A stretch of 64,000 bases of DNA from Caenibius tardaugens NBRC 16725 (lineage in GTDB: Bacteria; Pseudomonadota; Alphaproteobacteria; Sphingomonadales; Sphingomonadaceae), in the NCBI RefSeq assembly GCF_003860345.1, contig NZ_CP034179.1, forward strand, positions 3,394,001 to 3,458,000, written 5' to 3'. A program made the translations under genes and the position numbers. Positions 28,230-42,595 of this stretch are shown here, piece after piece (position 1 is the first letter of the stretch; the number at the start of each line of letters is the position of its first letter). The notes under the pieces are model-generated. The model searched no databases and had not been told where the DNA came from. It worked only from the letters and a program-made list of their open reading frames with translations.

Positions 28230-29279
28230 TCAGGCCTGTACAGGCGCGTTCAGCGCGTACCATTCCATCGCTTCGACAATCCCCTGCCGGATGTCGTGCG
28301 TGGGCTTGAATCCCAGCAGACGCCCCGCCTTGGCGATATCGGCTTGCGAATGGCGCACATCCCCGGCACGAAAATCCCTGAAGACCGGTTCGCGCTCGTA
28401 GTGAATCTGCCGGGCGGCCAGCGCATCGCGCAATGCGGCAAACAATTCGGACAGCGTTGTCCTGTCTCCCACCGCGACATTGTAAACCTCGCCCTGCGCA
28501 TCGTCGCCAGCGAGGGCGGCGCGCAGATTGGCCTGAACCGCATTGGCGACGTAGCAGAAGTCGCGGCTGGTTGCGCCGTCGCCGTTGATGACGACATCGT
28601 CGTTGGCGATCATTGCGGCGGTCCATTTGGGAATGACCGCGGCATAGGCGCCATTCGGGTCCTGCCGTGGGCCGAACACATTGAAATAGCGAAGCCCCGT
28701 CGCACGAAAGCCGTAACAGCGCGCATAGACCGCCGCATAATGTTCGTTGACCAGCTTGGTCACCGCATAGGGCGAAAGCGGGTTGCCGATCCGGTCTTCC
28801 TGCTTGGGCAGCGCGGCTTCATCGCCATAAGTTGAACTGGATGCCGCATAGATGAAGCGGTGGACGTGGGCGCGTCGCGCGGCGTCCAGCAGATTGAGAT
28901 AGCCGGTAATGTTGACATCATGTGATGTCAGCGGATCGGCCAGCGAACGCGGCACCGATCCCAGCGCGGCCTGATGCAGGACGATGTCGACGCCTGTGAC
29001 CGCGCGTTCGCAGATGGCGCGATCGCGAATGTCGCCTTCGATGAAGGTGAAATTACGCCAGAATTCCGGCCCGATCCGGCTTTCCACTTCCGCCAGATTG
29101 TGGCGATGGCCAGTGGCGAAGTTGTCCAGACCCACGACTTTCTGCCCGCAAGACAACAGGACCTCGAGCAGATTCGATCCGATGAATCCGGCGACCCCGG
29201 TGACAAGCCAGATGTGGCGTTTCGACGTTAGTTTATGAGTGACTTCCTGCAGGGCAGGAAGCGCGAGCCAATGATGCAT
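28230..29279 (-). CDS. tviC: UDP-N-acetylhexosamine(uronate) C4-epimerase, TviC/WbpP type
   Basis: 349 aa, the WbpP/TviC length. Extended SDR: NAD-binding VTGVAGFIGSNLLE (residues ~26-39) and DNFATG; catalytic Ser-Tyr-Lys set in AASSSTYGDEAALPKQE and YAVTKLVNEHYAAVYARCYG (Tyr near residue 174). The extended N-terminus before the Rossmann fold is typical of WbpP. In the Vi pathway TviC epimerises UDP-GlcNAcA to UDP-GalNAcA. AAGGAA precedes the ATG. It is divergent from the tviB-like gene across an AT-rich control region. A generic UDP-sugar 4-epimerase role remains possible. Confidence 0.88.
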   Translation of the reverse strand: MHHWLALPALQEVTHKLTSKRHIWLVTGVAGFIGSNLLEVLLSCGQKVVGLDNFATGHRHNLAEVESRIGPEFWRNFTFIEGDIRDRAICERAVTGVDIVLHQAALGSVPRSLADPLTSHDVNITGYLNLLDAARRAHVHRFIYAASSSTYGDEAALPKQEDRIGNPLSPYAVTKLVNEHYAAVYARCYGFRATGLRYFNVFGPRQDPNGAYAAVIPKWTAAMIANDDVVINGDGATSRDFCYVANAVQANLRAALAGDDAQGEVYNVAVGDRTTLSELFAALRDALAARQIHYEREPVFRDFRAGDVRHSQADIAKAGRLLGFKPTHDIRQGIVEAMEWYALNAPVQA

Positions 29280-29727
29280 GATGGTTCCTTGGAAGCCGCG
29301 CCTGACGGCGCAAATCGCTAACTAACAATCGCATAACCGAAAAAAAGCGCCAGTTCGGCAGAACGCATCACGGGCACAGAATATCGCAATGTAGGAGATT
29401 TGATGAAATTGGGGTGATAGCGAAAATGAACAGTATATATCTCACCATATCCGATGAGATAAATTCAAAATATATGGGTTTAGCAAATAATATGATTCAA
29501 TGAATCAGAATAGACTTAAGGATGAGTCTAATAATTCTAAATTATGGTATATGTATATTATTATACATTCCATAATATAGGAATTTTATATCAAAAATCC
29601 GTGGTGATTCTTTATGAGAATCATTAAATTATAACCACACAGAATAATATGTCTTATTTTTGATCCATCGGGTCACGCTTTGTGCTGCCTTTGGCGCAAG
29701 TGTGCGTCCCCAACCGCTTGAGGTTTT
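29280..29727. promoter_or_regulatory. Divergent control region with AT-rich, hairpin-dense core
   Basis: 448 bp with no credible ORF between divergent tviC-like and tviB-like genes. From about 29390 to 29660 the base composition drops to a very AT-rich state, unlike every other part of the window. Inverted repeats: TATCTCA/TGAGATA (29438-29461); TGATTC/GAATCA (29493-29507); TAGACT/AGTCTA (29511-29530); a compound hairpin ATTATGG...CCATAAT enclosing ATGTATA/TATACAT (29541-29576); TGATTCT/AGAATCA (29605-29623). Probable promoter and silencer region for the capsule locus. The tviB ribosome site GAGG is at 29720. Confidence 0.6.
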
Positions 29728-41387: not shown

Positions 41388-42595
41388 TGCGCCGCATGAT
41401 GTTTGCCCCTGCGCTGGCGTTGGCCACGACACCGCTATCCGGCTCCGTCAGCGCGCCATGGCCCGTGGCGGCGGCGGCCGCGGGCGCCACGGCGGCAGCG
41501 CAGGCGCGCTGTGCGGCGGAAGGGACAGTAGTGCAGGGCGGGAAGGTCATGGACGCCCGCATCTATCGCGCGATGACTGGCTTTGCCGCGCAAGGCGGTA
41601 CGACCGGCGGACTGGGCCGCACGCGGTTTGTGGTGACCCGGGCTGACGATCCGCAAGGCAAGGGTGCGCCTGGCACCTTGCGCGACGCGGCGGCACGAGC
41701 CGCTGCGGCGGGTGGCGGCTGGATTGCCTTCGCCCCTGCATTGGCAGGCAAGACGATCACTTTGACAGCGCCCTTGCGGCTTGGTTCCAATATCACGGTG
41801 GACGGCGGCTGCGCTGCGCCCATGGTGACCGGGCAATTTCGCGGTTCGCTGGTCTATCTGGCTGGCAGCCGCAACGTGGTGATGACGCGGCTGTCGCTGC
41901 AGCATGCGGGGCCAGGCACGCAGGGCGATTGCATCACGGTCAGCCATGGTGCGGATCGTATATGGCTGGCCTATATGCGCTTGCGGCAGTGTCATGACGG
42001 GTTGATCGATGTCACGCGGGATGGAAATCCCGGAGCCATGCGGGTGACGATTTCCAACAACCAGTTTCTCGACCATGACAAGGCGATGCTGATTGTCGGA
42101 GGGCCGGTCGGCCCTTCCTGCGCGCTGTCGTCAAATCCGGTTCAGGTCACGGTTTATCGCAACATGTTCCTGCGCACCGGGCAACGGCACCCCCGGGTCA
42201 GCGGCGATGCCTTTGTTGACCTTGCCCAGAATGTTGTCGCGTTTTCCCCGCGCCAGCGGGCCGGGGGGCAAACGGGCGGCGCATACGGCACACTGGCGAC
42301 GAATGGTGCCCGCGTGCTCATCGATGGGACGGCGTATGTCCCACCGGCGGGAAAGAAGCACTATCGTATCGCCTCGAACCGCGCGGGTAACGAGGATAAA
42401 GCATCGGATGCGCGGTGCAGCCAAGGCGAACTGGAGTGGGAAGGCAGCCGCCCCGCCGGGCAGGCCATTACGGCCGCCACAGGCCCCGCAAAGCTGGCGC
42501 GGATGCGGCCCTATCGCTTGCCCGATCTCGGAACCCGTGCCGCCCCGGCGATGATCCGCGATCTGGAAACCAGAACCGGCCCTTCCGGCATCTGA
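41384..42595 (+). CDS. Secreted pectate-lyase-like enzyme (PL1), likely capsule lyase
   Basis: 403 aa from the ATG at 41384, overlapping the vexE-like stop by 4 bp. Long Ala-rich signal peptide (MMRRMMFAPALALATTPLSGSVSA...). PL1 beta-helix motifs: GGTTGGLGRTRFVVT, GTLRDAA, SNITVDGG, CITVSHGADRIWLAYMRLRQCHDGLIDVTRDG, ISNNQFLDHDKAMLIVG, and catalytic-region GQRHPRVSG (about residues 264-272). PL1 enzymes cleave alpha-1,4-galacturonan by beta-elimination; Vi is alpha-1,4-linked GalNAcA, so the operon's own polymer is the likely substrate (inference). Possible roles: chain release, length control or recycling. The last gene of the operon. Confidence 0.88.
   Translation: MMRRMMFAPALALATTPLSGSVSAPWPVAAAAAGATAAAQARCAAEGTVVQGGKVMDARIYRAMTGFAAQGGTTGGLGRTRFVVTRADDPQGKGAPGTLRDAAARAAAAGGGWIAFAPALAGKTITLTAPLRLGSNITVDGGCAAPMVTGQFRGSLVYLAGSRNVVMTRLSLQHAGPGTQGDCITVSHGADRIWLAYMRLRQCHDGLIDVTRDGNPGAMRVTISNNQFLDHDKAMLIVGGPVGPSCALSSNPVQVTVYRNMFLRTGQRHPRVSGDAFVDLAQNVVAFSPRQRAGGQTGGAYGTLATNGARVLIDGTAYVPPAGKKHYRIASNRAGNEDKASDARCSQGELEWEGSRPAGQAITAATGPAKLARMRPYRLPDLGTRAAPAMIRDLETRTGPSGI

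Follow-up and report, generated by a model that had tools for sequence, protein, structure and literature searches.

The Vi capsular polysaccharide is a typhoid vaccine target, Achromobacter denitrificans and Citrobacter freundii are reported to produce it, and VexL has been described as the Vi depolymerase of A. denitrificans (PMC9597891). VexL is further presented as a monomeric beta-helix hydrolase in a second report (PMC7949094). Here we analysed a 64,000-nucleotide stretch (the window) of Caenibius tardaugens NBRC 16725, positions 3394001-3458000 of its 4.36 Mb single-contig genome, and found at 28230-42595 nine intact tvi/vex genes, with a divergent tviC followed by tviB-tviD-tviE and vexA-E, plus a tenth, lyase-like gene. 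We assign a probability of about 0.78 to this being a Vi-type capsule locus, whose product, judged by its gene content, would most likely be an O-acetylated capsule of N-acetylgalactosaminuronic acid (GalNAcA) anchored by acylated N-acetylglucosamine (GlcNAc). A preliminary description of this DNA had proposed that this sphingomonad carries a full Vi-type locus, and the gene set, the gene order and the Vi-specific best matches support it; the genes it listed are all present and intact, with the sizes and places it gave, while the gene at 41384-42595 lay within its end coordinate and had received no name.

For all nine tvi/vex proteins the best NCBIfam match was the Vi-specific model. The margin over the next model was large for TviC, the homologue of the uridine diphosphate (UDP)-GlcNAcA C4-epimerase (28230-29279, minus strand, 349 aa; NF011728, 429 bits vs 156), and for TviD, a predicted Vi O-acetyltransferase with TPR repeats (31032-33503, plus strand, as are all the genes that follow; 823 aa; NF011727, 231 bits vs 54). 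TviE, a GT4 glycosyltransferase and predicted Vi polymerase (33507-35603, 698 aa), matched both TviE models, NF011726 at 606 bits and NF012034 at 404, with the next model at 76, and VexE, a TPR and acyltransferase protein predicted to be a UDP-GlcNAc C6 beta-hydroxyacyltransferase (39525-41387, 620 aa), matched NF011721 at 484 bits vs 50. Among the export proteins, the ABC-2 permease VexB (36658-37458, 266 aa) scored 157 bits with NF011723 vs 84 with KpsM, and the ATP-binding cassette (ABC) ATPase VexC (37467-38165, 232 aa), in which the Walker A motif is present (GSGKS), scored 114-117 bits with NF011724 vs 75 with the next model. The margin was modest for VexA, the outer-membrane export lipoprotein (35603-36661, 352 aa; NF011722, 134 bits vs 101), which has Poly_export and SLBB domains and, by eye, a VAGC lipobox. 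The remaining two are TviB, a UDP-GlcNAc C6-dehydrogenase homologue (29728-31011, 427 aa; NF011729), and VexD, a polysaccharide co-polymerase or inner-membrane export protein (38174-39520, 448 aa; NF011725). TviC is 56-73% identical to the TviC proteins of Citrobacter, Caballeronia, Achromobacter and several sphingomonads, and TviB about 65% identical to that of Achromobacter.

TviD is reportedly an SGNH-like O-acetyltransferase, as Wear et al. are said to have described in 2022. In alignments of the window with related loci (32 rows for VexE, 28 for TviE, 25 for TviD, 22 for TviB and 16 for TviC), C12 and H248 of TviD were invariant in all 25 rows; they are the counterparts of C18 and H253 of Salmonella Typhi TviD named in PMC11187135, given a numbering offset of 8 by which Citrobacter residue 1 aligns with model position 9. 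VexE H452 and D518 were likewise invariant (32/32) and correspond to the H466 and D532 of PMC9597891, with a spacing of 66 in both. The sixth position of the VexE HX4D/E motif was F or Y in every row, and in the window F457 replaces the usual acid; in the same report, Tyr is described at this position and Phe is tolerated. The TviE EX7E pair E598/E606 and the TviB motif GGHC258IGVDPYY were each kept in at least 90% of rows, and S148, S149, Y171 and K175 of TviC in 16 of 16.

The tenth gene, vexL-like (41384-42595, plus strand, 403 aa), encodes a polysaccharide lyase of the PL1 type with the Pfam domain Pectate_lyase_4 and, by eye, a signal-peptide-like N-terminus. Searched against PDB sequences, the protein matched VexL itself best (6fi2_A, E=2.9e-16, 62.6 bits), and it is likely, as far as sequence comparison can tell, a Vi-cutting enzyme. 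In the Achromobacter kerstersii locus (L058) a close VexL directly follows vexE (P0019 vs 6fi2_A, 804 bits), and homologues of the window's protein follow vexE in five other sphingomonad loci (L055, L056, L057, L059 and L073). With a VexL-like lyase as its tenth gene, the locus therefore resembles Achromobacter as well as Salmonella in content.

From tviB to the lyase gene the junctions range from -4 to +20 bp, the tight spacing noted in the preliminary description, and the vexL-like start overlaps vexE by 4 bp, so this block is likely transcribed as one operon. In the pathway that we propose, TviB would oxidise UDP-GlcNAc to UDP-GlcNAcA, TviC would epimerise this to UDP-GalNAcA, TviE would polymerise alpha-1,4-GalNAcA and TviD would O-acetylate the polymer. 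VexE would acylate UDP-GlcNAc at C6 with a beta-hydroxyacyl group and so provide the polymer with its lipid end, which would make a linker of 3-deoxy-D-manno-octulosonic acid (Kdo) unnecessary; VexB, VexC, VexD and VexA would move the lipid-anchored polymer across both membranes, and the lyase, probably exported, may trim or release it. The KpsC/KpsS family (PF05159, Capsule_synth) had no match across the 4.36 Mb genome in a search that was positive in 2 of 14 control genomes.

Several observations weigh against the Vi assignment. None of the nine proteins reaches the curated NCBIfam equivalog cut-off. VexD ties, at 207 bits with the Vi model and 206 with BexC/CtrB/KpsE, and does not distinguish Vi from group 2, and the margin of TviB is modest (413 bits vs 368 for a generic nucleotide sugar dehydrogenase model that passes its own cut-off). 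The TviD-model match covers only about the first half of the protein, identity to Citrobacter is low (TviD 24%, VexE 31%, VexC 31%), and control TviE and VexE proteins score 944-1088 bits, about twice the window's values. The lyase is only 33% identical to A. kerstersii VexL over 253 columns, and its next PDB match, the pollen allergen 1pxz_A, follows by a small margin at 55.1 bits. Finally, tviC stands outside the presumed operon in the opposite orientation. As for the cut-offs, of six control proteins taken from A. kerstersii and Citrobacter amalonaticus, four (TviD and VexE of each species) likewise fell below them and only the two TviE proteins passed, and A. kerstersii TviD scored 269 bits, near the 231 of the window. 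We read these cut-offs as tuned to near-identical enteric and betaproteobacterial sequences and hence not as defining.

We compared the locus with viaB of Salmonella Typhi and Citrobacter through the Citrobacter and Budvicia loci L075, L076, L078 and L079. The nine tviB-E and vexA-E genes are shared and their order is identical except for tviC, which lies between tviB and tviD in viaB and upstream and divergent in the window. Exporter type (by the VexB and VexD trees) and the VexE active-site pattern are also shared, whereas the window has a VexL-like lyase and its TviD and TviE fall on the opposite side of the trees. TviA, whose length we take to be about 179 aa, lies upstream of tviB in enteric loci; the 448-bp gap between tviC and tviB is too short for some 179 codons, the rest of the genome not having been searched, so that the different regulator region proposed earlier is a fair description. 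TviD and TviE of four Achromobacter loci (L058, L060, L061, L063) and a Caballeronia plasmid (L080) group with those of the window, and a VexL-type lyase follows vexE in Achromobacter, as in the window, and vexE-tviC in Caballeronia. In contrast, the window's VexB is only 20-22% identical to theirs, and their VexC lacks the Walker A motif that the window's keeps. Among sphingomonads, L054 (the metagenome-assembled genome RH-23may17-1257) shares the full core set, at 49-65% identity over the eight genes compared, as does L057 (Aurantiacibacter rhizosphaerae). L055, L056, L057, L059 and L073 have the same gene order and the lyase gene after vexE, and differ in carrying a 64-65% identical tviC downstream, converging on the lyase gene, whereas in Sphingomicrobium L089 tviC is upstream and divergent, as it is here, with about 1.5 kb between it and tviB. 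A tviC at least 65% identical was present somewhere in 8 of the 13 genomes whose locus had none or a distant one.

Phylogenies of the individual proteins disagreed. The TviE and VexE trees were built on 24 of 29 named loci and one more (L061, L063, L073, L078 and L081 having been dropped beforehand), the TviE tree also without L066, L077 and L082, and those of TviD, VexA, VexB, VexD and TviB also without L062 and L069; in all trees, rows that were too short or without the gene fell out, and no outgroup root was used. TviE split 10 | 10 with support of 100/100, the window standing with L054, L055, L056, L057, L059, L071, Achromobacter and Caballeronia on one side, and Citrobacter/Budvicia with the remaining sphingomonads on the other. 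TviD reproduced this split for the shared rows (100/100). A single sphingomonad clade was rejected for TviE (approximately unbiased test, p-AU 8e-5) and not for VexE (p-AU 0.43), whose tree has weak deep forks and carries a long-branch warning. The TviE/TviD split was itself rejected by VexD (p-AU 5e-38), VexB (4e-61) and VexA (0.008), and not by TviB (0.078). By VexB and VexD the window groups with sphingomonads and Citrobacter, and a separate type, exporter 2, is formed in these trees by Achromobacter, Caballeronia, Novosphingobium and Mesorhizobium sophorae. The locus is a mosaic, and the conflict between its synthesis and export trees is strong. Since the synthesis and exporter groupings conflict, four combinations exist: synthesis A with exporter 1 in the window, A with 2 in Achromobacter, B with 1 in Citrobacter and S. 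arenae, and B with 2 in Novosphingobium fuchskuhlense. Neither the Citrobacter nor the Achromobacter loci that were compared thus have the combination found in the window, and the pattern suggests that Vi-type gene sets have been reshuffled between distant bacteria.

The two exporters differ in their VexC. Walker A (GK[ST]) was kept in 19/19 exporter-1 VexC rows from 18 genomes, and the Walker A/P-loop and the ABC signature stretch were missing in all nine exporter-2 loci (L058, L060, L061, L063, L064, L066, L067, L070 and L080), which belong to Achromobacter, Caballeronia, Novosphingobium and M. sophorae and lie outside the window. The P-loop-less protein occupies the VexC position beside VexA-, VexB- and VexD-like genes (L058:8055-8771; L070:17672-18382), and for the two such proteins that were scanned neither NCBIfam (E 1e-5) nor Pfam (E 1e-3) gave a family match. 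The adjoining VexB-like permease frames (L058:6699-8045; L070:16165-17658) have a long N-terminal extension, with 448 and 497 aa vs 266 aa in the window by predicted start codons. According to PMC3448643, an insertion in vexC of S. Typhi viaB carried by E. coli DH5alpha leaves Vi inside the cell.

A search of the family with the whole VexE protein matched 135 of 298 genomes; among the matches listed, VexE was full-length only in the C. tardaugens genome and in G089, G017 and G221, the others being partial and mostly confined to the TPR part. The search was therefore repeated with the acyltransferase half, which matched 11 of 396 genomes of the order: C. tardaugens itself, six at 52-57% identity, all carrying tviB-tviD-tviE-vexABCDE, and four weaker ones. 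Three of these four (G505, G431, G358) showed no other Vi gene within the 20 kb taken. The fourth, G391 (locus L052), holds an odd mixture of two TviE-like and two VexE-like matches with a half-length TviD-like gene. A TviD profile, with at most two candidates scored per genome, matched 3 of 385 genomes of the class, two of them full-length including C. tardaugens. A single-protein VexE scan of GTDB genomes gave 18 pattern matches, none a relative, and an alignment-based scan gave 26 loci: 16 sphingomonad (several in genomes already counted above, for example L059 in G017), four Achromobacter, three Citrobacter and one each of Budvicia, Mesorhizobium and Labrys.

Twelve of the 16 sphingomonad loci (L054, L055, L056, L057, L059, L065, L068, L070, L071, L072, L073 and L074) are complete for the seven core genes that were scored: tviB, tviD, tviE, vexA, vexB, vexD and vexE. 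Of the incomplete loci, L062, L067 and L069 run into a contig end, and L064 has no tviE match within 21.5 kb. In S. rhizophila (L068) both tviB and tviE are broken into two neighbouring matches, through decay or sequencing error. The Vi-type system thus recurs patchily in sphingomonads: the alphaproteobacterial version put forward in the preliminary description is supported, and it is not a singular case. A literature search found no report of Vi loci in sphingomonads, in a corpus from which subscription papers were mostly missing, and genome annotations may already name them. VexE relatives also occur on plasmids of Caballeronia (three records) and Mesorhizobium (four). On the Mesorhizobium plasmid loci L081 and L082, and in Labrys L077, a VexE-like acyltransferase stands beside a VexL-like gene; L081 and L082 add several glycosyltransferases, an adenosine monophosphate (AMP)-binding protein and an acyl carrier protein, and about 29.5 kb contained nothing matching TviB or TviD. 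Such loci may build another polymer on a lipid end of the VexE type.

The same could apply to C. tardaugens, whose locus might follow the assembly route of Vi, with a lipid end made by VexE, and yet build a related hexosaminuronic acid glycan, different in residue, linkage or acetylation. L081 and L082, which keep VexE- and VexL-like genes with the rest changed, make this conceivable, as do the low identity of TviD and TviE to Citrobacter and the Novosphingobium loci L062 and L070, in which the epimerase beside tviE is only 31-32% like TviC. The window's own TviC, however, is close to those of Citrobacter, Caballeronia and Achromobacter (56-66%), TviB is similarly close to that of Achromobacter, a VexL-like lyase is present, and the genera on either side of the window's TviE include reported Vi producers, although our comparison used different species of those genera. 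We therefore judge a variant glycan unlikely, though a credible outcome, and favour the acetylated GalNAcA capsule.

An acquired island that is decaying or silent would fit the distribution within the genus. Full-length VexE was found in none of three congeners. In one of them, G002, the window's segment 14367-28174 is conserved in order at 77-95% identity for the ten genes tested, and the eight tested from 28175-46586 (tviC, tviB, tviD, tviE, vexE, lyase, second TonB receptor and phytase) are unmatched; at the site of the capsule locus lie about 2.5 kb with YfiR-like, GGDEF and OmpA genes (L088:15109-17536), which look like a signalling set for cyclic dimeric guanosine monophosphate, and then KefC. 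For G001, the 20 kb taken contained KefC alone, and G003 lacks a close KefC, its best match reaching 33%. The genus thus carries the locus patchily, and gain in C. tardaugens and loss elsewhere are both possible. The split tviB and tviE of S. rhizophila would also suit decay. Against it, none of the ten frames of the window is broken, their junctions are tight and the active sites are conserved, and a test of GC by codon position keeps nine of ten as coding-like (at vexC an overlapping minus-strand frame was chosen instead), so that we regard a dead or silent island as improbable. A group-2 locus with KpsC/KpsS and a Kdo-linked capsule, Vi-like in appearance only, can draw on the VexD tie and is rejected as extremely unlikely, given the lack of any PF05159 match in a search with a positive control and the presence of VexE and TviD, for which we know of no group-2 counterpart. 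A Vi-type capsule locus is thus the reading that we retain.

The locus is flanked by a TonB-dependent receptor (25739-28174) on one side and by a second TonB receptor and a phytase (42757-46586) on the other. The tviC-tviB intergenic region (29280-29727, 448 bp, 37% GC) is presumably a divergent promoter region. It contains nearly all of 29351-29730, the sole stretch of the window with 200-bp intervals below 35% GC. An AT-rich region upstream of tviB was not upheld as a shared trait: 200-bp minima were 41-62% GC in all 11 relatives vs 23% in the window, the compared stretches being 210-1,529 bp long and some possibly including coding sequence. A scan for sigma-70-like promoters gave 5 hits vs a shuffled expectation of 3.8, not above chance, and a terminator-like scan 17 vs 12.8, little above it.

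Enteric and betaproteobacterial loci group with different sphingomonad lineages. This leads us to a broader proposal, in which the diversity of Vi-type capsules would be centred on sphingomonads as their likely reservoir, TviD/TviE and VexBCD modules would have been swapped, and one exporter would work without canonical ABC ATPase power; as a whole it is tentative, and we would not count on all its parts holding together. The reservoir idea rests on the TviE and TviD trees, because VexE does not reject one sphingomonad clade. The loci offer natural variants of TviE, TviD, VexE and VexL for in vitro study, and such organisms might cross-react in Vi-based detection. Exporter exchange would let one ask whether it is the shared lipid end made by VexE, and not the polymer, that the exporter recognises. 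To our knowledge, the origin of the Vi locus in enteric bacteria is unsettled, and the deep, diverse sphingomonad Vi-type loci provide material for that question.

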